DNA of 64,000 bases, taken from contig NC_016751.1 in assembly GCF_000255135.1 (NCBI RefSeq), positions 1,054,001 to 1,118,000 of the forward strand, read 5' to 3'. This document shows, in pieces, positions 1,129 through 48,911 of the stretch; the stretch's first letter is position 1; every line of letters starts with the position of its first letter. The notes under the pieces were generated by a model that ran no database searches, was not told the DNA's origin, and saw only the letters and a list, made by a program, of their open reading frames with translations. Both the position numbers and the translations under genes were made by a program. This stretch comes from Marinitoga piezophila KA3 (GTDB taxonomy: Bacteria; Thermotogota; Thermotogae; Petrotogales; Petrotogaceae).

Positions 1129-2493
1129 ATGAAAATGATAAATCGTGAAAAAGAAAAAGATTTTTTAGAAAAAAAAATTTATTCAAATAAAAGTGAATTA
1201 ATAATTCTATATGGCCGAAGAAGGGTTGGAAAAACCTTCTTACTGGAAAAAACCTTTGAAGAAAAGGCTGTATTTTTCACTGCTGATCTTTCTAATACTT
1301 CATATCTAATCAATAGATTTTCCAGGGAAATAATATCCAAACTTCCAAATTTTCCCGGAAATATCCAGGTTAATCAATGGGATGATTTTTTTGGTTTATT
1401 GAAAATGTATTTACTACAAAATAGAGATAAAATAATAATATTCGATGAATTTCAATATATTCCATTTCAGGATTCTTCATTTATGTCTATATTCCAAAGA
1501 TGGTGGGATACAGAATTCAGTAAGATGAATGTCAATTTTATTTTATGTGGTTCATATTCCGGAATGATAGAAAAAATCGCACTTGAACACAATAGCCCAT
1601 TATATGGTCGAAGAACCGGACAATACAAAATATTACCCATGGATTTCTTTGATTCTTCAAAGTTTCTTCCTAATTTCAATATTGAAGATAAAATATATAT
1701 ATATAGTATAACTGATGGTATTCCACTATACTTAAAAGAATTTTCTGAATTTTCTAATTTTGAAGAGGCACTTTTTAATAGAGTGTTTTCACCAGGGGAA
1801 TTTCTCGTTGAAGAAGGAAAATTCTTAACTATGGAAGAATTTAAAAAGGATCCTTCAAATTATTTTTCCATTATGCGAGTAATTGCCGATGGAAAAACTA
1901 CACCTGTAGAAATTTCAAATTTCAGTGGTGTAGAAAATAGAAAGATTTCCACATACCTTTCAAAGTTGCTGGATGTTGAACTAATAAAAAAGGAATTTCC
2001 CGTTTCATTAAAAAAACCAAAAAGAAAACCGTTGTATTATATAAATGATGAGTATATAAAATTTTATTTTAAATATATTTTTCCAAATATAGATATAATT
2101 TATAGGGGACACGGAGAGCAACTTGTTAAAAGTATCCTTCTGGAAATAAATAATTATACATCATTTACTTTTGAAAAAATAGCAAGGCAATACATAGAAA
2201 GAGTTGAATCACCACAAAAGATTGGAAAATGGTGGAATAAAGATATAGAAATTGATATTGCAGCTATAAAAGAAAACAAAGTAATTGTTGGAGAATGTAA
2301 ATGGACAAATAAAAAGGTTGATAATAGAGTTTTGCAAAAGTTACAGCTGAAAACTCAAAAAATGATAGAAGAATGGAATTTTGAACCTGATGAAATTATT
2401 TATTATCTATTCTCAAAATCAGGATTTACAAACATTTTAGAAGCAGAAAATATAAAACTTATTGATTTAGAAAGCTTATCAGAACTTATATAA
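1129..2493 (+). CDS. AAA+ ATPase with C-terminal PD-(D/E)XK nuclease-like domain (archaeal ATPase/DUF234 family)
   Basis: Member of the prokaryotic ATPase family often annotated as ATP-binding protein with a DUF234 tail; cellular role unknown, and many relatives look accessory or selfish. Residues 29-36 are the Walker A motif GRRRVGKT and about 102-108 the Walker B IIIFDEF. The C-terminal third carries EIDIAAIKENK...GECKW (about 373-392), matching the D-(x)n-ExK nuclease core. An upstream in-frame start exists at 1072, but the ATG at 1129 is preceded by AGGAG (1116-1120) and the 19 extra residues are hydrophobic leader-like sequence not expected for this family. The gene has its own promoter and is flanked on both sides by terminators sharing a stem sequence, so it is transcribed alone. 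An IS remnant lies just upstream. Confidence 0.85.
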   Translation: MKMINREKEKDFLEKKIYSNKSELIILYGRRRVGKTFLLEKTFEEKAVFFTADLSNTSYLINRFSREIISKLPNFPGNIQVNQWDDFFGLLKMYLLQNRDKIIIFDEFQYIPFQDSSFMSIFQRWWDTEFSKMNVNFILCGSYSGMIEKIALEHNSPLYGRRTGQYKILPMDFFDSSKFLPNFNIEDKIYIYSITDGIPLYLKEFSEFSNFEEALFNRVFSPGEFLVEEGKFLTMEEFKKDPSNYFSIMRVIADGKTTPVEISNFSGVENRKISTYLSKLLDVELIKKEFPVSLKKPKRKPLYYINDEYIKFYFKYIFPNIDIIYRGHGEQLVKSILLEINNYTSFTFEKIARQYIERVESPQKIGKWWNKDIEIDIAAIKENKVIVGECKWTNKKVDNRVLQKLQLKTQKMIEEWNFEPDEIIYYLFSKSGFTNILEAENIKLIDLESLSELI

Positions 2494-2525
2494 AATTTAC
2501 TTTTAAAGTTTCATATAATATCAGC

Positions 2526-2568
2526 AAAAAACTTCTGGAATTATCCTTTTAAATTCCAGAAGTTTTTT
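2526..2568 (+). terminator. Rho-independent terminator
   Basis: A 17-bp perfect inverted repeat (2526-2542 with 2552-2568) has a GC-containing core CTTCTGGAAT and ends in six T residues. It closes the ATPase gene. The core repeats that of the terminator at 978-1013. Confidence 0.8.
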
Positions 2569-2580
2569 ATATTAATCTGT

Positions 2581-2591
2581 TATGATATAAT
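2581..2591 (+). promoter_or_regulatory. Extended -10 promoter element TATGATATAAT
   Basis: TATGATATAAT contains TGA directly before TATAAT (extended -10). No convincing -35 is present because the region 17 bp upstream is the preceding terminator's T tract. It sits 50 bp before the start codon of the next gene. Confidence 0.5.
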
Positions 2592-2640
2592 CAATATAGA
2601 GAATTATTAAACCGATTTATACAACCAAGAGGTGAAGTAA

Positions 2641-4398
2641 ATGAAAAAGAAAATACCATATGGAAAGCAAAATTTTGAGGTAATAAGAAAACAAAATTAT
2701 TATTATGTTGATAGAACAGAATATATAGAAAAATTGGAAAAATTAGATGAAACATATATAGTATTTTTAAGACCAAGAAAATTTGGAAAAACATTGTTTT
2801 TAGATACACTTGGAAAATATTATGATATTAATTATAAAAACAAATTTGAAGAATTATTTGGAGATTTATATATCGGCGAAAATCCAACACCATTAAAAAA
2901 TGAATATTACATATTATATATGGATTTTTCAGGAATACAAACAGAAAACAAGGATATATTAATAAAAAGTTTTAAAAACAATGTAATTGTATATCTTGAG
3001 AATTTTAATAGTAGATATAATTTAAAAATAAAAATAGAAAAGGAATTCAGTGAACCAGCAGATATAATAAGAGCATTCTTAAACAATGCAATTGAAGTAT
3101 TAGACAAACCAATATACTTATTGATAGACGAATATGATCATTTTGCAAATGAATTATTGAGTTTCAATCTTGATCTGTTCAGAAATAGCGTAACAAAACA
3201 TGGATTTGTAAGAAAATTCTACGAAGAAATAAAAAAAGGAACCAAGACAATTATAGAAAGAATATTCATGACAGGAGTAAGTCCAATAATGCTGGATTCA
3301 TTAACCAGTGGATTCAATATTACAAAGAACAAGACTACAGATATAAACTTCAATAAAATGCTTGGATTTACAAAAGAAGAAGTAATTCAATTACTTGAAT
3401 ATTATGAAATATACTCTGATAAATTATTAAAGGAAATGGAAGAGAATTATAATGGCTATCGATTCAATATAGAAGCAAAAGAAAAATTATATAATCCTGA
3501 TATGGTATTTTATTTCATAACAGAATATCAATCACAACAAAAACCTCCACAAAAAATAATAGACGACAATATATTAAGCGATTACAAAAAGGTTCAGAAT
3601 CTATTTAATTTAGGAGAATTACTCGGAGTGTCAATAGAAAAAGAGAACGGAAAGGAGTTAACAAAAGAAGAAAAAGAAAAAGAAAGCTCAAAAAGGATAA
3701 TAGGGAATCTATTAAATGAAATACTATTAACAGGAAGAACGGAATTAACAGAATTAACCACCATATTCAATCCTGGAAAAAGGATAGACATAAAAGACAT
3801 AAAATCATTATTATTCTATCTTGGATTTATGACATTTGAAAAAGAAGGGATAATAACATATTTAAAAATACCCAATTATTCAATGAGAAAGATATTCTCA
3901 GATTATTTCACAGAATATATAGAAGAAAAATTAACAGAATATATCGATTCAGAACCAATAGAAATAGCAGTAAGAAAAATACTAACAGATGGAGAAATAA
4001 ATACATTTGCAAAAGAAATAGAAAATCTATTAAGCAAACTGGATAATAGAATGTTCATGGGATTTGATGAAAAATATATAAAAATTTTGATGTATAGCTA
4101 CTTAATATTAACACCATTTGCAATGGTAAAGATGGAGTATCCAGTAGAAGGCGGATATGTGGATATAGCAATGTTCAAAAGATATGAAGAAGTGCCATAT
4201 GAAGCGATAATAGAAGTAAAATACATAAAACAGAATGAATATACCGAAAGTAAATTCAAAGAAAAAATCGCTCAGGCAAGGGAACAGATAGAAAGATACA
4301 AAAAATCATACGAATTAAATTCAAAAAATGAGAGAATGAAAAAATACATAATAGTCTTTGTTGGAAAAGAGGCTAAATTTGTTGAGGAAGTGAAATGA
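2641..4398 (+). CDS. AAA-ATPase-like protein with PD-(D/E)XK nuclease domain (PF09820/PF08011 type)
   Basis: A 585-residue protein with the architecture of a large, poorly understood family found in multiple copies in Bacteroidetes, clostridia and Thermotogota. The N-terminal AAA-like ATPase domain has the unusual Walker A RPRKFGKT (residues 44-51) and Walker B YLLIDEYDHF (about 159-168). The C-terminal domain shows GGYVDIAMF (about 503-511) and EAIIEVKYIK (about 520-529), the D and ExK residues of a PD-(D/E)XK nuclease. GAGGTGA 5 bases upstream supports the ATG at 2641. The downstream HAD gene overlaps its stop (ATGA), so the two are translationally coupled. Function unknown; defence or mobile-element maintenance has been suggested for such proteins, but nothing here proves it. 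Confidence 0.85.
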   Translation: MKKKIPYGKQNFEVIRKQNYYYVDRTEYIEKLEKLDETYIVFLRPRKFGKTLFLDTLGKYYDINYKNKFEELFGDLYIGENPTPLKNEYYILYMDFSGIQTENKDILIKSFKNNVIVYLENFNSRYNLKIKIEKEFSEPADIIRAFLNNAIEVLDKPIYLLIDEYDHFANELLSFNLDLFRNSVTKHGFVRKFYEEIKKGTKTIIERIFMTGVSPIMLDSLTSGFNITKNKTTDINFNKMLGFTKEEVIQLLEYYEIYSDKLLKEMEENYNGYRFNIEAKEKLYNPDMVFYFITEYQSQQKPPQKIIDDNILSDYKKVQNLFNLGELLGVSIEKENGKELTKEEKEKESSKRIIGNLLNEILLTGRTELTELTTIFNPGKRIDIKDIKSLLFYLGFMTFEKEGIITYLKIPNYSMRKIFSDYFTEYIEEKLTEYIDSEPIEIAVRKILTDGEINTFAKEIENLLSKLDNRMFMGFDEKYIKILMYSYLILTPFAMVKMEYPVEGGYVDIAMFKRYEEVPYEAIIEVKYIKQNEYTESKFKEKIAQAREQIERYKKSYELNSKNERMKKYIIVFVGKEAKFVEEVK

Positions 4399-16578: not shown

Positions 16579-18489
16579 TTAAATTTCTCCTTCTTTCCAT
16601 AATTGTATAAATACCTTTACTATTTCTGGCGAAAATTGTTTTCCTGCATTTTCTTCAATTTCTTTTATAGCTATTTCAATATCAAGCGGATTTCTATAAG
16701 ACCTTCTTGAACGCATGGCATCCCATGCATCTGCAACAGATATTATCTGAGACATTATTGGTATTGCTTCACCCTTTAATCCATCAGGATATCCCTTACC
16801 ATCCCATCTTTCATGATGATGTCTAATTGCTATTGCAATTTCGCTAAGGCTTTCTGATTTTATTAAAGCATTATATCCATATTCTGGATGTTTCTTTATA
16901 TATTCATACTCTTCTTCTGTTAATCGGGATTTTTTATTTAATATTTCAATAGGTATTAAAAGTTTCCCAATATCATGCAGCAATCCTGCCCAATAAATCT
17001 TTTTTATAAACGGTTTCCCAAATCCCATTTTTTCTGCAATTTTTTTGGATAATTCTGCTACGTTTTTTGAATGATTTTTCGTATATTCATCATGCAATTC
17101 AAGGAAAGAAATAAGAGATTTAATAATATCTTCTCTAAATCTTTCTTCAATATCAGCTTCATTTTTTATCTTAAAGAATGTAGTTGCAAGAATTTTAAAT
17201 GATTCTATTAACTCATCGAGACTTTCTGTATTAATTTCATCTTTTTTGAAATAAAGGGTTATTATATATGAAAGATTGATATTTAAATTAATTGGTATAT
17301 CCAACGAATAAACTTCATTTTTGTTAATATTGTTTATCTGTAATCCTTTTTCAAATATTGTTTTTTCTTCATCATTTTCTATTTTTAATATTCTTCCATG
17401 GACTATTCCTGGAAAAACAAAATCGAGTATCTTAAAAAGTTCTTTGAGATAATTATCCTCCGATGTATATTCTTCTCTTCCAAGATCTGATATAGCTTTG
17501 ATAATTAATTTTAAAGAGTTTTGTAGCTTTTCGTTATGAAGATAAAGTTCTTCCAGCTCTTCATTTTGCGATGAGATCTCCTCATTTAATGATTGTAATT
17601 CTTCATTTTTTTTCTGTAATTCAAGATTTAACTTCCTCAGTAACATTGTACGTCTTTCTACCAGTTTTAAAAGAACTAAATGGTTTATTATTAAAAATAC
17701 TATAATCAACATTGAAAATAAAATAAATATTTTTAGCCATCTTGGAACAACCGGTTCATCTTGCACATATAGATATTTATTTATTACTTCATAATATTTA
17801 GAATCTGTATCTTCCTTTAATTTTTTTAATTCTGTATCAATGAGATTGGCTATATATTCTTTTTCCGGATAATCCTTTCTAAAAGCTATCATTACCTTTA
17901 CAGGGAAAAATATTATATCTGTTGGCGAAAGATTGTATTTTTCCGCATTTGTTAATCCAAAAGCTCTGTTAACCACTCCGGCATCTATCTGAGATTTTGA
18001 TAACGCCTTAAAAATATCCTCATATGTATTAAATTCAACATATGATACATCTATATCAAAATTTTTAAGCAACTCTTTTAATCCCTTTTCTTTATCTTCG
18101 TAAAAGATATCACCTTTTAAAACGCCTATTTTTTTATTTTTTAAATCAAACATATTATGTATATTAGAATTATGATTTGTATAAACTACAGCCCAATCCG
18201 AAATAAAGGATTCCTTATTAAAATAAAAATGCTTAGCCCGTTCTGCCGAATAGGCAATACAGGCTATAGCATCTATTTCACCATTATTCAATTTTTTTAA
18301 AAGATTTGAAAACGTATCCATTTCATAATTATGTTTAACATTATTTTGAGTAAGGATATAATCAATTAGCTCTGGAAATATCCCCGTTTCTTTATCTATT
18401 ATTTTTGGCGGATTATGATAAATCCCTATGGTTAATCCAAAAGATATTAGATTTATTAATAGGAATATATACAATAAAAGCCTCTTCAT
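16579..18489 (-). CDS. Membrane HD-GYP phosphodiesterase with fused periplasmic SBP_bac_3 sensor
   Basis: A 636-residue sensor protein. After a signal/membrane segment (about 2-18) comes a family 3 solute-binding domain (about 20-240), then a transmembrane helix (about 255-277), a long coiled coil (about 280-335), a poorly conserved linker domain and a C-terminal HD-GYP domain. The HD motif is LLHDIGK and the GYP motif GKGYPDGLKGE. HD-GYP proteins degrade cyclic-di-GMP, so binding of a small solute outside the cell would modulate second-messenger levels. It lies 29 bp after a chemoreceptor gene on the same strand. A second HD-GYP gene at 45236-47320 is paired with a separate binding protein. 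The ligand is unknown. Confidence 0.9.
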   Translation of the reverse strand: MKRLLLYIFLLINLISFGLTIGIYHNPPKIIDKETGIFPELIDYILTQNNVKHNYEMDTFSNLLKKLNNGEIDAIACIAYSAERAKHFYFNKESFISDWAVVYTNHNSNIHNMFDLKNKKIGVLKGDIFYEDKEKGLKELLKNFDIDVSYVEFNTYEDIFKALSKSQIDAGVVNRAFGLTNAEKYNLSPTDIIFFPVKVMIAFRKDYPEKEYIANLIDTELKKLKEDTDSKYYEVINKYLYVQDEPVVPRWLKIFILFSMLIIVFLIINHLVLLKLVERRTMLLRKLNLELQKKNEELQSLNEEISSQNEELEELYLHNEKLQNSLKLIIKAISDLGREEYTSEDNYLKELFKILDFVFPGIVHGRILKIENDEEKTIFEKGLQINNINKNEVYSLDIPINLNINLSYIITLYFKKDEINTESLDELIESFKILATTFFKIKNEADIEERFREDIIKSLISFLELHDEYTKNHSKNVAELSKKIAEKMGFGKPFIKKIYWAGLLHDIGKLLIPIEILNKKSRLTEEEYEYIKKHPEYGYNALIKSESLSEIAIAIRHHHERWDGKGYPDGLKGEAIPIMSQIISVADAWDAMRSRRSYRNPLDIEIAIKEIEENAGKQFSPEIVKVFIQLWKEGEI

Positions 18490-39916: not shown

Positions 39917-39947
39917 CATATAGAAAATTAAAAAAGTAAATACCTCC

Positions 39948-40108
39948 GGAATTAAAGGTGAGAAATCTTAAAAGGGAAGATGGTGAGAATCCATCACGGC
40001 CCCGCCACCGTAACCGGGTACGAAACCAACAAAAGGCCACTGGGAATTGTCCTGGGAAGGCGTTGGGAGTAGGATGATCCGGAAGTCGGGAGACCTGCCT
40101 TTAATTCC
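39948..40108 (+). ncRNA. Cobalamin (B12) riboswitch
   Basis: A complete cobalamin aptamer of about 161 nt. The closing P1 helix is a perfect 11-bp pair, GGAATTAAAGG (39948-39958) with CCTTTAATTCC (40098-40108). Core landmarks are GGTGAGAATCC (39982-39992), the CCCGCCACCGT segment (40001-40011), GCCACTGGGA (40036-40045), CTGGGAAGGC and the B12-box end GACCTGCC (40092-40099). The peripheral elements present fit the adenosylcobalamin-type class I. It precedes a succinyl-CoA-synthetase-like operon, an unusual target. Such switches normally reduce expression when B12 is bound. Confidence 0.95.
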
Positions 40109-40154
40109 AGAGCGATCCTGATCTCGCGGGAGATTAGGATGGAATTTTTATTTT
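40103..40154 (+). terminator. Riboswitch expression platform: intrinsic terminator
   Basis: ATCCTGATCTC (40115-40125) pairs with GAGATTAGGAT (40130-40140), one G-T wobble, around GCGG. AATTCC (40103-40108) can extend the stem with GGAATT (40141-40146), followed by a T-rich run. AATTCC also belongs to the riboswitch P1 helix, so aptamer and platform share bases. This suggests control by premature termination. AGGAT at 40071-40075 could compete for ATCCT as an antiterminator (speculative). Confidence 0.75.
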
Positions 40155-44091: not shown

Positions 44092-45249
44092 TTAATTCAT
44101 TTCTCCTTTAAAATTCGTTTCATCATCTATATAATTTTCTTCTGCATATGATTCTGTTGTTGCAATACCTTTAGTTACCAAACCCAGCAAAAATGAAAAA
44201 ATAATTATCTGACTCCCTCCATATGAAATCAAAGGCAACGGAACTCCTGTAACCGGCATTATTCCCAAATTCATCCCTATATTTTCAAAGACATGAAAAA
44301 ATATAATCAAACTTGTTCCAAAATATATGTATTTCCAGAATCTTCTGGAAGTTTTTTGTGCATAAATATACATTCTATAAATTAATATTCCATAAAGCAA
44401 TATGATTACAGTTATTCCCAAAAATCCAAATTCTTCACCTATTACAGAAATAATAAAATCATTATGGTCTTCCGGTACAAAATCAGAAAGATTCATAAAA
44501 CCATTTAAATATCCTTTTCCAAAAAAACCACCAGAACCTATTGCTCTCATTGCCTGTAAAGTATTATATGCAACTCCAGCGGCATTTTTTTCAGGAAATA
44601 AAAAACCTATAATTCTGGCTTTTTGATAATCTTTCATAAAATAAAAGGCAAAAGGTGAGGAAAATAACATTAAAAACATTGAAGTTTTCCATGTTTTTTC
44701 ATGTTCACCAGAAACATAGGTTAACATAAACCATAGACCAAATGTAAATAACGTCATACCCAGATCCGGCTGTTTAAAGATTAATCCAAGCCCTAACAAC
44801 GTTGTTAGAGATAATATATAATATGCTTTTTTGTTTTTTTCTGCAAGGTATTTTGCAAAAATAATAAGTGTAAAGATCAAAAACAAATGAGAGGGCTGTA
44901 TTCCAACAGGACCAACTCTTATCCATCGTCTTGCACCATAGCGTGCTCGTTCAAATACCAAAACATATATTAAAAGAAAAATAGTAAAAGAATATAAATA
45001 GCCGATAATTCTTTTTAAAAAACTTTCTTTTAAAAAATATGCGGTAAAAAATACTATTATTCCTAACGTTGAAAATATTATTTGTTTATAATAATTATCT
45101 TCTATATACTCTCCATATGTAGCTGTTCTTACTGCAAAAACTCCTATTATCAAAAGTAAAAAATATATTAAAGGAATTATATACTCAAATTTTCTCATTC
45201 TTTCAAAAGGTTCTGTATAAATTCCTGACAAAGGATTATTTCTTATCAT
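44092..45249 (-). CDS. RodA/FtsW-family SEDS glycosyltransferase
   Basis: A 385-residue polytopic protein of the SEDS family, which polymerises lipid II into glycan strands. About ten membrane helices are evident. Conserved segments include QPSHLF, KQPDLGM, QAMRAIGSGG, the DFIISVIGEEFGF loop and the terminal LPLISYGGSQ. The order near rlmH and lack of division genes favour RodA (cell elongation) over FtsW, without proof. It overlaps the upstream HD-GYP gene by 14 bp. Confidence 0.9.
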   Translation of the reverse strand: MIRNNPLSGIYTEPFERMRKFEYIIPLIYFLLLIIGVFAVRTATYGEYIEDNYYKQIIFSTLGIIVFFTAYFLKESFLKRIIGYLYSFTIFLLIYVLVFERARYGARRWIRVGPVGIQPSHLFLIFTLIIFAKYLAEKNKKAYYILSLTTLLGLGLIFKQPDLGMTLFTFGLWFMLTYVSGEHEKTWKTSMFLMLFSSPFAFYFMKDYQKARIIGFLFPEKNAAGVAYNTLQAMRAIGSGGFFGKGYLNGFMNLSDFVPEDHNDFIISVIGEEFGFLGITVIILLYGILIYRMYIYAQKTSRRFWKYIYFGTSLIIFFHVFENIGMNLGIMPVTGVPLPLISYGGSQIIIFSFLLGLVTKGIATTESYAEENYIDDETNFKGEMN

Positions 45250-47320
45250 TGTAATTTTTCCTCCAACTTTCTTCTTTTAAGAAAGCTACAAATTTTATTG
45301 CTAAATCAGGATCAAATTGTGTTCCGGCATTTTTTTCAATTTCCTTTATGCTTTCTTCAAATGAAAGTGCCTTTTTGTAAGGTCTGTCTGTTGTCATTGC
45401 ATCAAAACTATCAGCAAGAGATATTATTCTTGAAATAAATGGTATTTCTTCGCCTTTTAATCCTTCTGGATATCCTCTGCCATCCCATCTTTCATGATGA
45501 TACTTTGCAATAATTGCATATTCATCCATATAACCACTTTGTTTAAGCAATTCATAACTTTTAGTGGAATGTGTTTTTACTATTTCATATTCTTCATCTG
45601 TTAATCTTGTCTCCTTATTTAAAACTGTTTGGGGAATAAAGAATTTTCCTATATCATGCAATAAACTGGACCAATAAACCTTTCTTATCATATCTTTATC
45701 CAGTTTAAGATATTCTGCAAATTCTGTTGCATAATATGCAACTCTTTCTGAATGACCTTTTGTATATTTATCATAATACTCAAGAGCTTTTACAAGAGTT
45801 AATACAACATTTTTATGGAACCTTCCTTCTTCTTTTGAAATTTGCTTTAATCTAACAAATGCAGAAGCAAGATGCGAAAGAGCCTCTACAAGTCTCATAG
45901 ATTCATTTGAAAAAGTCTTTCTGCCATTTTTTACACTTATATCCAGAGCAATTTGCCCAATAACATAATTGTTTATCTTTAAAGGCGCTAATAACGATTT
46001 TGAAATTGGTTTTGTCGCATCGGCTAATTCCTGAAGTTTTGTATCATCAAGCAATCCTTTATTTTTTTCAACAATATTTTCAACAACAGATACCTGTTTC
46101 GCATATATAAATGTTTTGTTATCAAACACAACATGTTTCAGCCGTTTTTCATCATGCCCAATTGCACTGATAACCTTCCATATATTTTTATCTTTATTAA
46201 ACAGAAAAATACTTCCATAATCGGCTTCAGGAACTATTTTTATAGCACTTTCAAGTAATTTGTCAAAAAAGACCTTTTCATCCATATCGGAAAGACTAAG
46301 ACGGGCAATTACCGTTATTAATTCTTCTAATTTTTCAAAATATGTCTCTAATCGCTTATTTAAATCACTTAATTCTTCATTCATTGCCGTAGTTTCCTGC
46401 AAATAACCTTCTAATTCCAATTTATGCGCATAAATTCGTTTAATCAGTGAATTAAATGAATTTTTTAGAGATTCAAATTCTTCTATTTCAAAATTCTGAT
46501 CAAACTCTTCCAGTAATTCATTTCTCATATGTTCTGTCAATGATTCAATGGGATTAATAATTTGATTATTTAAATGCTTTATTTCCAATTTTCTCATAAT
46601 TATTGATATTAATACAACAACAATCATACTTAATAATGTTACTAAAAAGAAGTTATATATATATTTACTATAATCTATTATTAAATAAACCTTTCTTCCA
46701 TAAAGTTCAAATGTTTTAAAAATTGCAAACGGCTTATTTTCTTTAGTCAAAGAAATTTTCTCATTTTTTGCAAGAAAAACCTTTAATTCATCAATTACCG
46801 CTTTGACATCTAATTTAACAACTAAAATCCCTTCGAAAAAACGACTTTCTCCGTAAAAATCATAAAAATACGGAAATAAATAACATATATTTTCATTGTC
46901 AACAATAACTTTAAACTCTGTTTTTTTCAATTCATCTATATGTTTATCAATATCAAATTGTTGAAACCCGGCTTTTTCTGGATATACAAAGGTAAATGTT
47001 TTTAACGACGGCTTATAGTCTCCTATACATGAGATAACAGAGTTGCTATTAACAACATTTTTTAGGATCTTTTCAGCATCAACAGATAAAGAATAAACAT
47101 TTGCAATAACTTCCATATTCGTAATAATTCTCTTCTTTTGAGTATCAATAATCTTTAATATCCTATTGTACTGGATTTCAACTTCATTGTTCATATAAAA
47201 ATATGTATTTAAAGCAAAAAAGATTGCCATTATTAAATATATGGCAGTGGTTGCAGCTATTAACTTTTTTCTTGTGTTTCTTCTAAACCATTGTTCTAAT
47301 TTTATTTTATTATTTTCCAT
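45236..47320 (-). CDS. Membrane HD-GYP phosphodiesterase with extracytoplasmic sensor and GAF domain
   Basis: A 694-residue signalling protein: transmembrane helix (about 17-40), extracytoplasmic sensor (about 41-215), second helix (about 216-237), HAMP-like linker and coiled coil (to about 330), GAF domain (about 335-490) and C-terminal HD-GYP domain. The catalytic motifs are LLHDIGK and GRGYPEGLKGEE. It would hydrolyse cyclic-di-GMP in response to an external signal. The gene begins within the last codons of a periplasmic binding-protein gene (11-bp overlap), implying that the two proteins work together. The sister gene at 16579-18489 has the same binding domain fused in one chain. Confidence 0.9.
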   Translation of the reverse strand: MENNKIKLEQWFRRNTRKKLIAATTAIYLIMAIFFALNTYFYMNNEVEIQYNRILKIIDTQKKRIITNMEVIANVYSLSVDAEKILKNVVNSNSVISCIGDYKPSLKTFTFVYPEKAGFQQFDIDKHIDELKKTEFKVIVDNENICYLFPYFYDFYGESRFFEGILVVKLDVKAVIDELKVFLAKNEKISLTKENKPFAIFKTFELYGRKVYLIIDYSKYIYNFFLVTLLSMIVVVLISIIMRKLEIKHLNNQIINPIESLTEHMRNELLEEFDQNFEIEEFESLKNSFNSLIKRIYAHKLELEGYLQETTAMNEELSDLNKRLETYFEKLEELITVIARLSLSDMDEKVFFDKLLESAIKIVPEADYGSIFLFNKDKNIWKVISAIGHDEKRLKHVVFDNKTFIYAKQVSVVENIVEKNKGLLDDTKLQELADATKPISKSLLAPLKINNYVIGQIALDISVKNGRKTFSNESMRLVEALSHLASAFVRLKQISKEEGRFHKNVVLTLVKALEYYDKYTKGHSERVAYYATEFAEYLKLDKDMIRKVYWSSLLHDIGKFFIPQTVLNKETRLTDEEYEIVKTHSTKSYELLKQSGYMDEYAIIAKYHHERWDGRGYPEGLKGEEIPFISRIISLADSFDAMTTDRPYKKALSFEESIKEIEKNAGTQFDPDLAIKFVAFLKEESWRKNYNDKK

Positions 47321-48020
47321 ATTTTTTCAGTATAATATTTATTTTCTGTTTATTCTTCAAAATTATATAATTTATCTTTTCCAGTAAAATCTTATCTTTT
47401 GTTGCAATACCAACATCTGATTTTTCAAATGGCTCTCCAACAATTTCTACAGGATATTTTTTTGAAAAATATAAAGCATTTACCAGATCAAAGAAAGCAG
47501 CATCTACATTTCCATCTAAAACCCCTTCAAGACACTCTTCATTTGAAGAATATACATGTAAATGTACTATTTTGCCGCTATTAATTAATTCAAGCGTTTT
47601 TTTATACCCCGTTGAATCTTTTTTTGCGCCAATAGCTATATTATCAAAACTTGTTATTTTTTTCTTATTATCTTTTAATTTTATTAAAACCAACCCTGTA
47701 GTTAAATACGGTATTGAAAAATAATATTTTTTTCGTCTTTCGGGAGTAATATGTATTCCGCCTATTATCATATCCACATTTCCTTCATTTAGCGCATTGT
47801 CGACCAGATATGGAAACGAAAAAATATAAATTTCTACATTTTCATGCAGCTCTTGAGATATCATTTTTACAATTTCTACATCAATTCCTTTTAAAATATA
47901 CCCATCTTCTACTTCTTCCATATATGCATATGGCTCTGTAAGTGAAATCCCAACCTTTAACACTGCATAAAATTGCACAGCTACTATCAAAAAAAAGATT
48001 ATAAATAACTTGCTCTTCAT
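47310..48020 (-). CDS. Periplasmic solute-binding protein, family 3, without transporter
   Basis: A 236-residue SBP_bac_3 protein with a signal peptide (MKSKLFIIFFLIVAVQFYAV). Landmarks are VGISLTEPYAYMEE, the GIDVEIVKMIS segment, MIIGGIHITPERRKKYYFS and DAAFFDLVNA. Family members bind polar amino acids. No ABC permease or ATPase is nearby; instead the gene overlaps an HD-GYP sensor gene, so it probably presents its ligand to that receptor rather than to a transporter. Two near-consensus -10 elements lie upstream. Confidence 0.87.
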   Translation of the reverse strand: MKSKLFIIFFLIVAVQFYAVLKVGISLTEPYAYMEEVEDGYILKGIDVEIVKMISQELHENVEIYIFSFPYLVDNALNEGNVDMIIGGIHITPERRKKYYFSIPYLTTGLVLIKLKDNKKKITSFDNIAIGAKKDSTGYKKTLELINSGKIVHLHVYSSNEECLEGVLDGNVDAAFFDLVNALYFSKKYPVEIVGEPFEKSDVGIATKDKILLEKINYIILKNKQKINIILKKYGK

Positions 48021-48185: not shown

Positions 48186-48911
48186 ATGAAAATTTATATA
48201 ATTGGACCTGGAAAAGTGGGAAAAACTTTATATAATTGCTTAATAAAAAAATATTCTGATATAATATTAATAGGGAAGAATATTGATATATCAAATTACA
48301 GATTTGATGGCATTATAATAATTACAACACCCGATGATATTATTGAAAAAATATGGAATAAATTAAAAAATAATAACCTCGAAAATGTTCTCGCAATTGG
48401 TCATTGTAGTGGAGTATTGGACTCTTCTTTTATACAATCTGTGCCACATTTTTCCATGCACCCTAACTTTCCATTTAACTCAGAAAAAAAATGTGAAGAA
48501 ATACAAAATATAGTCTGGGGAATTGAAGGCAATGAAAAGGGATTGGAATATGCAAAAAAATTAGTTACAGACTTAAAAGGAAAATATATCATTATTCCCC
48601 AAAACAAAAAAATCCAATATCATCTTGCAGCTGTTATACTTTCAAATTTTTCATATGCTCTGGCGAAATTATCCATGGATTTATATAAAGATATGAATCT
48701 TAACAACATAGAGCATTTAATAGACCTTGCAATCTATTCATTAAATAATATAAAAAAAGTAGGTTTAAAAGAAGCTTTAACTGGCCCTGTTGCAAGAAAT
48801 GATATTAAAACCATTCAAAAAGAAAAAAAAATATTCAAAAGCTATTTTAACGATGAAAATATTTATGATTTTTTTATAGATACGCTATACAGGATAAAGG
48901 AGGAAAATTGA
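48186..48911 (+). CDS. Rossmann/DUF2520 protein, candidate ketopantoate reductase
   Basis: A 241-residue oxidoreductase-like protein. The N-terminal Rossmann fold has IIGPGKVGKTL (residues 5-15) and a TTPDD loop; GHCSGVLDS, HPNFPF and the helical DUF2520 C-terminal half with LTGPVARNDIKTI are characteristic. Architecture resembles 6-phosphogluconate-dehydrogenase-like reductases such as PanE. Its position directly before panB, one base apart, makes NADPH-dependent ketopantoate reduction a good hypothesis. GGAGG precedes the ATG, which opens a long plus-strand gene run. Confidence 0.78.
   Translation: MKIYIIGPGKVGKTLYNCLIKKYSDIILIGKNIDISNYRFDGIIIITTPDDIIEKIWNKLKNNNLENVLAIGHCSGVLDSSFIQSVPHFSMHPNFPFNSEKKCEEIQNIVWGIEGNEKGLEYAKKLVTDLKGKYIIIPQNKKIQYHLAAVILSNFSYALAKLSMDLYKDMNLNNIEHLIDLAIYSLNNIKKVGLKEALTGPVARNDIKTIQKEKKIFKSYFNDENIYDFFIDTLYRIKEEN

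Follow-up and report, generated by a model that had tools for sequence, protein, structure and literature searches.

A binding-protein gene overlapping an HD-GYP receptor gene in Marinitoga piezophila: a candidate NspS-MbaA-like relay

Marinitoga piezophila is a heat-loving, deep-sea bacterium, and in the 64,000-nucleotide stretch of its genome analysed here (the window) a gene for a free, secreted binding protein (SBP) runs into the gene of a membrane-bound HD-GYP receptor. The features of the locus are as follows:

44092-45249, minus strand: rodA (PF01098), one flank of the pair, overlapped by the receptor gene by 14 bp (ORF, Pfam)
45236-47320, minus strand: HD-GYP receptor gene, 694 aa, transmembrane helix (TM)-periplasmic domain-TM-coil-GAF-HD-GYP (ORF, Pfam, model, hydropathy)
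45302-45793, minus strand: HD-GYP domain, residues 510-673 (Pfam; list of PmGH ligands from PMC4159591)
45857-46285, minus strand: GAF domain, residues 346-488 (Pfam 21.5 bits, below the cut-off of 28.6; fold 3ci6)
46652-47206, minus strand: periplasmic domain, residues 39-223 (about 185), between TM 20-38 and TM 224-242 (model; TMs by hydropathy)
47310-47320, minus strand: overlap of the SBP and receptor reading frames, 11 bp (ORF coordinates)
47310-48020, minus strand: SBP gene, secreted, non-lipidated SBP_bac_3 protein, 236 aa (ORF list, Pfam, AlphaFold model)
47487-47489, minus strand: Asp178 codon, amino-group-anchoring position (alignment)
47736-47738, minus strand: Arg95 codon, carboxylate-anchoring position (alignment; role from PMC5431781)
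47751-47753, minus strand: His90 codon, a Thr/Ser position in ABC-linked amino-acid SBPs (alignment)
47964-48020, minus strand: probable signal peptide, about residues 1-19 (read, with its cleavage site, from the sequence)
48186-48911, plus strand: DUF2520 gene, divergent, the other flank, upstream of the SBP gene (Pfam)

The unit thus reads SBP-HDGYP-rodA, and by Pfam the SBP gene is followed downstream by the HD-GYP gene, rodA and a gene for an rlmH-type SPOUT methyltransferase. A sequence-only reading had described an SBP_bac_3 protein without any transporter whose gene overlaps that of an HD-GYP sensor by 11 bp; the coordinates are exactly as it gave them, and neither an ABC permease nor an ATPase gene flanks the pair. 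The free protein matches SBP_bac_3 (PF00497) with an E-value of 7e-21 and 74.7 bits against a cut-off of 26.4, and the sensor matches HD_5 (E 7e-41). Read by eye, the sequence ahead of the receptor gene holds no clear ribosome site. A promoter scan returned 34 sites where 35.8 are expected and is uninformative. A cobalamin riboswitch is the sole Rfam match in the window, with none of the c-di-GMP type passing the threshold.

In all six Marinitoga members that carry the SBP its first 40 residues are devoid of cysteine. The AlphaFold model (pLDDT 88) is bilobed, its nearest solved folds are amino-acid binding proteins, and it superimposes on 4oen with a Z-score of 24.5 (2.2 Å, 212 residues). Two of the positions that anchor an alpha-amino acid are retained: Arg95 is an arginine throughout the family to which this split SBP belongs (16/16) and in all 30 ABC-linked SBPs, and Asp178 is an aspartate in the same two sets (16/16 and 30/30) and in 8 of the 31 HD-GYP-fused SBPs. 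The third, Thr/Ser, is replaced by His90 in the entire split-SBP family (16/16) and in none of the 104 other aligned Thermotogota rows. A ligand of the amino-acid type is plausible.

The periplasmic domain of the receptor, modelled with block pLDDT values of 71-88 within the 694-residue model, is predicted to adopt a dCache-like fold. In the fold search the highest-scoring match to this region is the extracellular domain of a ligand-binding receptor, 5ere (Z 13.4), and the sensor of KinD (4jgo; Z 12.7, 178 residues, 3.2 Å) and the periplasmic domain of DvhD (9rc2; Z 11.8) follow; KinD, Mlp37, Mlp24 and DvhD are all matched at Z 11.4-12.8, CHASE4 domains at Z 11.3-11.7, and the extracellular domain of YycG is also among the matches, in a search that used the whole 694-residue model and leaves room for families absent from its match list. 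Pfam finds no Cache match in the receptor. The assignment of the GAF domain has fold support from 3ci6 (Z 14.1 over residues 322-497). By sequence the cytoplasmic half is closest, among solved structures, to PmGH (4MCW, E 3e-43) and next to V-cGAP3 (5z7c). Seven of the eight metal ligands of PmGH are present in the HD-GYP domain, and the eighth position (E185) is occupied by Tyr519, the usual residue there in the HD-GYP subgroup that does not include PmGH and that is marked by the Tyr-Thr motif. The catalytic pair D517/K559 and the GYP motif are in place, and D517, H523, H555, D556, K559, H584, H608, H609, D637, D640, R646, K649 and GYP are invariant in all seven orthologs. The receptor is probably a c-di-GMP phosphodiesterase, with 3',3'-cGAMP a possible substrate in place of c-di-GMP.

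The same input family and output domain occur on a single chain elsewhere in the window:

16579-18489, minus strand: fused SBP_bac_3-TM-HD-GYP receptor, 636 aa (ORF; SBP_bac_3 E 1e-10, HD_5 E 6e-40)

The position and both domains of this ORF agree with the earlier description, which had also taken the gene pair for a split version of it; neither this proposal nor the idea that both loci report the same solute found support. The SBPs belong to separate clades, neither HD-GYP domain is the other's sister, and the pockets differ, with R95/D178/H90 in the split protein and R/N/A in the fused one, which is without the Asp and the His. Among 75 HD-GYP domains the split clade has as its sister the domain of another fused receptor (G038 L088; 95/89). 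In the fused protein of the window the second membrane helix follows directly on the SBP; the split receptor, by contrast, carries a separate periplasmic domain. What does stand is the more general claim that SBP_bac_3 input and c-di-GMP enzymes form a recurrent design: fused receptors account for 31 ORFs in 19 of 27 Thermotogota genomes, and M. piezophila encodes seven SBP_bac_3 proteins, of which one belongs to an ABC operon, another to an operon of the Mrp/Mbh type, and the remaining five go with c-di-GMP enzymes. Two of these five are fused to HD-GYP and one to GGDEF, one lies beside a kinase and a REC-HD-GYP regulator (the tandem SBP-kinase-REC-HD-GYP locus L070), and one is the split pair. 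In the sister genus G007 an SBP gene overlaps a GGDEF sensor gene by 8 bp (L183), although no homology between the periplasmic domain of that sensor and that of the Marinitoga receptor was found (hhalign probability 6%). Two further candidate SBP/HD-GYP pairs (G023 L102 and G041 L098) were rejected as fused genes with a broken frame.

We favour, with rather more confidence than doubt, a relay of the NspS-MbaA kind: the SBP would dock on the receptor's predicted dCache-like domain and tune the HD-GYP phosphodiesterase. The free SBP would be secreted to the periplasm and bind a small carboxylated solute, probably amino-acid-like; in its loaded or its empty form it would dock on the predicted dCache-like domain, and TM2, the coil and the GAF domain would carry the resulting movement on to the HD-GYP domain. 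There c-di-GMP, or possibly 3',3'-cGAMP, would be hydrolysed, the ligand raising or lowering the activity. The working would resemble that of NspS-MbaA but with a phosphodiesterase-only HD-GYP output, and through this unit the cell probably adjusts c-di-GMP to a dissolved nutrient. Docking, ligand class, catalytic activity and substrate we infer.

The pair is retained as two separate ORFs in six of the seven Marinitoga members, with junctions that range from an 11-bp overlap to a 3-bp gap when the first in-frame start is taken. Since this junction is kept in six of seven members whose SBPs share 52-57% identity, it is more than chance. Gene order is, however, conserved throughout the surrounding region, so that adjacency by itself carries less weight than it might seem to. 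The receptor/rodA overlap measures 4 bp in the remaining six members. Beyond Marinitoga, rodA occurs without the pair in all seven sampled genera, six from the same family and one from another family of the order. In G007 (L225) rodA (2250-3341) directly abuts the DUF2520 homolog (3346-4134, 51% identity) exactly at the position of the pair; on this comparison of an empty with an occupied site, the SBP and HD-GYP genes look like an inserted two-gene cassette. The seventh member, G006, retains an intact HD-GYP gene with all the residues listed above, whereas its SBP survives only as decayed remnants; an 84-bp DNA match considered as one of these was rejected, as most of it lies within the receptor gene.

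An intact receptor without its SBP implies that the receptor may work alone, and it lends some weight to an explanation that we consider unlikely, albeit the best of the alternatives: the receptor senses its own ligand through the dCache-like domain, and the SBP, though co-expressed next to it, works with a different protein such as a chemoreceptor. It is established knowledge that a Cache domain usually binds its small molecule directly (PMC13090378), and in six of the ten genomes from family f10 the SBP gene has an MCP gene in its vicinity, separated from it by two or three genes. A point against the favoured relay is that the periplasmic domain has diverged fast, with 23-33% identity between M. 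piezophila and the other members against 52-57% for the SBP, which is not the simplest expectation for a tightly co-evolving interface. Against the explanation by a co-expressed neighbour, both genes form one unit between the same two flanks with overlapping or abutting frames, and the cassette contains no other signalling gene. Relaxed constraint in G006 after the loss of its SBP was looked for by dN/dS and not demonstrated: for the sensor region G001-G006 gives a ratio of 0.46 and G004-G005, in which the gene pair is intact, one of 0.25, but the HD-GYP ratio is raised as well (0.23 compared to 0.11). Seen from G003, G006 (30% identity) and G001 (29%) lie at much the same distance, and the comparisons G002-G003, G001-G003 and G006-G003 give higher sensor ratios at dS values of 0.73-1.09.

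The split-SBP family was found in 16 of 103 genomes, and in none of the 16 does a permease or ATPase gene lie directly beside the SBP gene. In the ten f10 genomes no HD-GYP gene lies near it in the stretches read; a neighbouring dehydrogenase gene points toward the SBP gene, and six of the ten have an ABC ATPase gene at a distance of 5.3-6.7 kb, past the MCP gene. A pattern scan of genome contigs with the SBP alignment returned a single locus, in Marinitoga lauensis, and missed loci that the genome search had found, so that members outside Thermotogota may have escaped it; no plasmid matched at 1e-20, and the phage matches comprise 17 records, all below 60% identity. The only relative of the receptor's periplasmic domain found outside Marinitoga is in G088 (probability 95%, E 7e-8) and has no adjoining SBP.

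The distant ATPase gene is one point in favour of another alternative, that the SBP serves a transporter encoded elsewhere and adjoins the HD-GYP gene without functional significance. HisJ and LAO are two SBPs that share one permease and set a precedent. The earlier reading had named, as the finding that would overturn its proposal, an ABC permease elsewhere that is clearly co-expressed with the binding protein, together with no interaction between that protein and the sensor; the M. piezophila genome encodes a single polar-amino-acid permease above the family cut-off (G000:C2:2082165), which already has its own SBP and ATPase so that none is spare, and three weaker matches fall under the cut-off. 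Around the SBP in the other 15 genomes no permease-profile match was found with a seed of a single, polar-amino-acid permease, which other kinds may escape. The trees differ in where they place the family relative to transport SBPs: in a quick tree of 117 rows, from which R95, D178 and another column were dropped and the H90 column retained, it belongs to a starred set of 52 rows with no ABC-linked member, whereas in quick and careful trees of 99 rows (18 'other' rows dropped) it stands beside the ABC clade, with values of 90 and 94/84, not starred. The latter grouping speaks for the shared permease, while the pocket differs from all 30 ABC-linked SBPs at position 90, and on balance we regard this explanation as improbable. 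Equally little credence is given to an inside-out arrangement as in DvhD or LapD, in which the HD-GYP domain reads c-di-GMP and the periplasmic domain in response retains the SBP or lets it go, because the active-site residues are intact in all seven orthologs and the partner gene encodes an SBP and not a protease-adhesin set.

The NspS-MbaA-like relay is preferred because the pair is kept overlapping or abutting in six of seven members while the site is empty in seven of seven other genera, because no transporter gene adjoins the SBP in 16 genomes and the one polar-amino-acid permease above the cut-off has its own SBP, because the periplasmic domain is of a fold class used by sensors and the HD-GYP residues are invariant, and because the genome has 14 GGDEF matches and comparable operons exist in L183 and L070. 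Counted against it are the intact receptor of G006, the fast divergence of the periplasmic domain, the region-wide conservation of gene order, the f10 SBPs without a nearby HD-GYP gene, the G088 relative without an SBP and the ABC ATPase gene found in six of ten f10 genomes.

A wider reading, which we put forward tentatively and consider doubtful as it stands, is a new kind of relay founded by the two-gene cassette. An SBP family devoted to signalling, marked by the Thr/Ser-to-His pocket and by the lack of an adjoining transporter gene in 16 genomes, would act in trans on different receptors: in Marinitoga on an HD-GYP phosphodiesterase, and in a second family of Thermotogota on something else, perhaps a chemoreceptor. 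The Marinitoga receptor would have arisen by joining the output module of SBP-fused receptors to a dCache-like docking domain. For most HD-GYP enzymes the controlling signal is not known. If the reading is true, no SBP-gated HD-GYP enzyme would precede this one, and its ligand would differ from those of transport SBPs. The SBP and the periplasmic domain are small, soluble parts from a thermophile and G006 is a natural SBP-minus member, which makes ligand-to-c-di-GMP signalling directly testable. The census further cautions against annotating SBP_bac_3 proteins as transporter parts, given that only one in seven lies in an ABC operon here.

Relays from an SBP to a c-di-GMP enzyme are, by the analogies drawn here, already known with other enzyme types. 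In the NspS-MbaA system of Vibrio cholerae a free periplasmic binding protein controls an inner-membrane c-di-GMP enzyme and the genes overlap (PMC8967002); the system also occurs in Sinorhizobium meliloti (PMC9993111). The Marinitoga pair shares with it a separate SBP gene that overlaps or abuts the gene of a membrane c-di-GMP enzyme, in six of seven members, and, judging from sequence and model, a receptor with a periplasmic domain between two TMs and a cytoplasmic c-di-GMP enzyme domain. MbaA is a bifunctional GGDEF-EAL protein, whereas the Marinitoga output is GAF-HD-GYP, so the working may be MbaA-like but the receptor is not an MbaA. NspS binds polyamines whereas the Marinitoga SBP is an SBP_bac_3 protein with amino-acid-type anchors, and the likeness drawn here is one of architecture. 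The fused SBP_bac_3-(GAF)-HD-GYP receptors of Thermotogota have the same input family and output module as the split pair, but on one chain, with no extra periplasmic domain and with a different SBP clade and pocket. SBP_bac_3 domains are also found in the diguanylate cyclase protein CdgH, where the domain binds L-arginine (PMC5431781), and in the c-di-GMP-turnover protein RmcA (PMC8846402). Both resemble the split pair in that SBP_bac_3 provides the input to c-di-GMP turnover, and differ in carrying the binding domain in cis and in having a non-HD-GYP output. The output of RmcA is GGDEF-EAL. DvhD of Desulfovibrio vulgaris combines a dCache periplasmic domain and HD-GYP in one membrane protein and is described as a c-di-GMP switch controlling a protease (PMC13090378). 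The Marinitoga receptor joins a periplasmic domain of predicted dCache-like fold and HD-GYP on one chain, but with GAF where DvhD has PAS; the account of DvhD drawn on here names no SBP as its partner (PMC13090378), and no protease or adhesin genes, a trait of DvhD and LapD, adjoin the Marinitoga receptor gene, whose neighbours are the SBP, rodA, SPOUT methyltransferase and DUF2520 genes. The GAF-HD-GYP half is shared with PmGH of Persephonella marina (4MCW), a member of the three-metal E/D-T-G group, the other subgroup being taken to hold two (PMC4159591); unlike PmGH, the Marinitoga receptor has Tyr519-Thr, the motif of the other subgroup.

The locus consists of three overlapping genes, the first two identified as ORFs with Pfam matches and the third by Pfam:

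47310-48020 (-), SBP_bac_3 protein (the split SBP), 236 aa
45236-47320 (-), HD-GYP protein (the receptor), 694 aa
44092-45249 (-), rodA

The SBP and HD-GYP genes overlap by 11 bp, as the sequence-only reading had it, and the HD-GYP gene overlaps rodA by 14 bp; an rlmH-type SPOUT methyltransferase gene then follows rodA. The split SBP is probably a free periplasmic protein, since it has a signal-peptide-like start and its first 40 residues lack cysteine in all six genus members that carry it. The genome of Marinitoga piezophila comprises 2,244,793 bases in two contigs (2,231,407 and 13,386), and a cobalamin riboswitch (125 bits) is located in the window at 39939-40116 (+).

Hydropathy places two transmembrane helices in the receptor at residues 20-38 and 224-242. 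The intervening periplasmic block (residues 39-223) is modelled by AlphaFold with a pLDDT of 71-88 across seven orthologs, the HD-GYP half of the same model being poor. Among the matches listed, its top fold match is 5ere (Z 13.4), followed by the dCache sensors KinD (4jgo, Z 12.7 over 178 residues at 3.2 A), Mlp37 (6iov, Z 12.3) and DvhD (9rc2, Z 11.8), and by CHASE4 domains (Z 11.3-11.7); because Z values within 1 were counted as ties, ‘dCache-like’ denotes a predicted fold class and not an established family. By fold, residues 322-497 resemble GAF domains (Z up to 14.1), with Pfam GAF_2 below cut-off. The HD-GYP domain is closest in sequence to PmGH (4mcw, E 3e-43), and the alignment reveals seven of the eight PmGH metal ligands (H523, H555, D556, H584, H608, H609 and D637) alongside the catalytic D517/K559 pair, D640, the GYP motif and the substrate-binding R646/K649, all of them invariant in the seven receptor orthologs, including that of the genus member G006. 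The position of PmGH E185 is occupied by Tyr519, and a tyrosine here marks a second HD-GYP subgroup that is taken to hold two metals (excerpt of PMC4159591). In another genome (G088, L202:7217-9313), an HD-GYP receptor that has no adjoining SBP carries a periplasmic domain distantly related to that of the receptor here (E 6e-12).

A search of 61 genomes recovered the full-length receptor in all seven genus members and SBP orthologs in six; taking the first in-frame start, the two genes overlap by as much as 11 bp or lie up to 3 bp apart. G006 retains at the SBP site 423 bp of decayed remnants, spread over several frames, which can still be aligned to the SBP of the genus member G001 (one alignment spans 214 columns with 32 gaps and 72% DNA identity), next to an intact receptor ORF. 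Using the rlmH-type gene as an anchor, we surveyed the rodA region of seven other-genus genomes, six from the same family and one from a different family of the order, and found no SBP or HD-GYP gene upstream of rodA in any of them; in the sister genus (G007) rodA abuts a homolog of the DUF2520 gene (48186 in the window), exactly where the pair is located in the window. Because of this arrangement, the pair appears to be two genes inserted in the ancestor of the genus, perhaps at the same time.

The pair had been proposed as a split version of the window's fused receptor, an SBP_bac_3-TM-HD-GYP ORF at 16579-18489 (-), and this relationship is not supported. In an HD-GYP tree of 75 rows (the seven split receptors, 36 SBP-fused rows, one SBP-operon regulator and 31 others) the split receptors form one clade (100/95), outside which the HD-GYP domain of the window's fused protein is placed; the sister of the clade is the SBP-fused receptor of another Thermotogota genome, G038 (95/89), an assignment that could change with more unfused HD-GYP domains. 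The HD-GYP domains being placed apart, the two loci combine related output modules with inputs of different kinds, and the pair is no split copy of the fused gene.

The SBPs themselves point in the same direction. We aligned 120 SBP rows, leaving out those below 200 aa, the Mrp-type class and a permease fusion, cutting tandem SBPs in two and adding close relatives. The split SBP belongs to a family of 16 members that forms one clade (100/100). Arg95 and Asp178 are kept in 16/16 of this family and in 30/30 ABC-linked SBPs; position 90 is Thr/Ser in all 30 of the latter and His in all 16 of the former, and His occurs there in none of the other 104 rows. By motif rather than superposition, position 90 would correspond to S72 of LAOBP, the hydroxyl of which contacts the ligand (excerpt of PMC5431781). 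Among HD-GYP-fused SBPs, Arg is present in 29/31, Asp in 8/31 and Thr/Ser at position 90 in none, and in the window's fused SBP the equivalents of Asp178 and His90 are Asn and Ala. Because the pocket residues differ, the suggestion of a small solute, perhaps an amino acid, for both loci survives in part: an amino-acid-like carboxylate, bound by an altered pocket, is a plausible ligand of the split SBP, whereas the fused SBP probably binds something else.

A profile search with the split SBP (E up to 1e-35) across 103 Thermotogota genomes found this His-pocket family in 16, six in the genus and ten in a second family, f10. The f10 genes (L080:8133-8858 and L215-L223) adjoin a gene for another binding protein of 324-364 aa (the one examined with Pfam is SBP_bac_6) that has no permease of its own beside it; a transposase gene intervenes in one genome. 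The SBP is faced from its opposite side by a gene of short-chain-dehydrogenase type, from which an additional gene separates it in one genome. No domain-profile match to a permease occurs in any of the ten f10 stretches (6-18 kb, one cut by a contig end); six contain an MCP gene two or three genes away from the SBP and, past it, an ABC ATPase gene 5.3-6.7 kb from the SBP. In the stretches from G001-G005, domain profiles mark the SBP and receptor and nothing else. The description of the split SBP as lacking any transporter is consistent with its own genome, where the sole permease above the TIGR01726 cut-off, at a score of 91.8 bits, already has its own SBP and ATPase, and three weaker matches reach 20.6-23.9 bits against a cut-off of 42.2. 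By gene content, no ABC permease elsewhere was seen to be tied to the split SBP.

PF00497 yielded 135 matches in 26 of 27 Thermotogota genomes (26 genera), falling in 124 ORFs that were classed with custom domain profiles plus a rule on neighbouring genes. ABC operons account for 31 ORFs (plus one doubtful), HD-GYP fusions for 31 in 19 genomes and Mrp-type operons for 17; fusions to GGDEF (7), to GGDEF and HD-GYP (3), to a kinase (2) and to a permease (1) follow, as do genes beside a kinase (3), HD-GYP (4), GGDEF (1) or MCP (1). The remaining 22 are ‘other’, some truncated where a contig stops; two (L096 and L156) group with ABC-linked SBPs. Two of the four ORFs beside HD-GYP proved to be frame-broken fusions; the other two belong to this genus. 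The anticipated co-occurrence of SBP_bac_3 and HD-GYP is thus widespread in fused form (19/27 genomes), but true pairs of an SBP and a membrane HD-GYP protein are confined to one genus in this census.

Other arrangements also occur. G007 has an SBP_bac_3 gene (321 aa) that shares 8 bp with the gene of a two-TM sensor carrying GGDEF and a HAMP match below cut-off (L183:4195-6709), a synthesis counterpart of the SBP/HD-GYP pair. The M. piezophila genome itself encodes an operon in which a tandem-SBP protein is followed by a histidine kinase whose periplasmic region is small and by a REC-HD-GYP regulator (L070:5100-9290, C2:2021099-2025289), an order repeated in another genome (G054, L188); an SBP-PAS-GAF-HD-GYP fusion that comes immediately after a GGDEF gene (L071:4026-6458); an SBP-PAS-GGDEF fusion flanked by MCP and Peripla_BP_6 binding-protein genes (L072:3644-5464); and an MbhD-SBP_bac_3 fusion in what looks like an Mrp/Mbh-type operon (L073:4451-5188), with similar ORFs counted in 17/27 genomes by a size-and-neighbour rule. 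A 1268-aa protein of G039, a further Thermotogota genome, has a permease domain surrounded by several SBP_bac_3 domains, with an adjoining ATPase gene (L139:4484-8290).

Among the papers listed in our literature search, from which the principal review on signalling SBPs was missing, none dealt with an HD-GYP enzyme that has a separate SBP, and this negative is weak evidence of novelty. An excerpt of PMC9602780 states that SBP-activated diguanylate cyclases and phosphodiesterases are known; within the PBP clan in c-di-GMP networks, only SBP_bac_3, in RmcA, had been studied according to a portion of PMC8846402. The closest working model is NspS-MbaA, in which an SBP controls a c-di-GMP enzyme and the genes of the two likewise overlap (PMC8967002, in part). 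By analogy, the split SBP is predicted to dock on the receptor in a ligand-dependent manner and would tune HD-GYP output in putative c-di-GMP turnover, making the pair a probable SBP-gated HD-GYP receptor and a variant of the known SBP-gated c-di-GMP enzymes.
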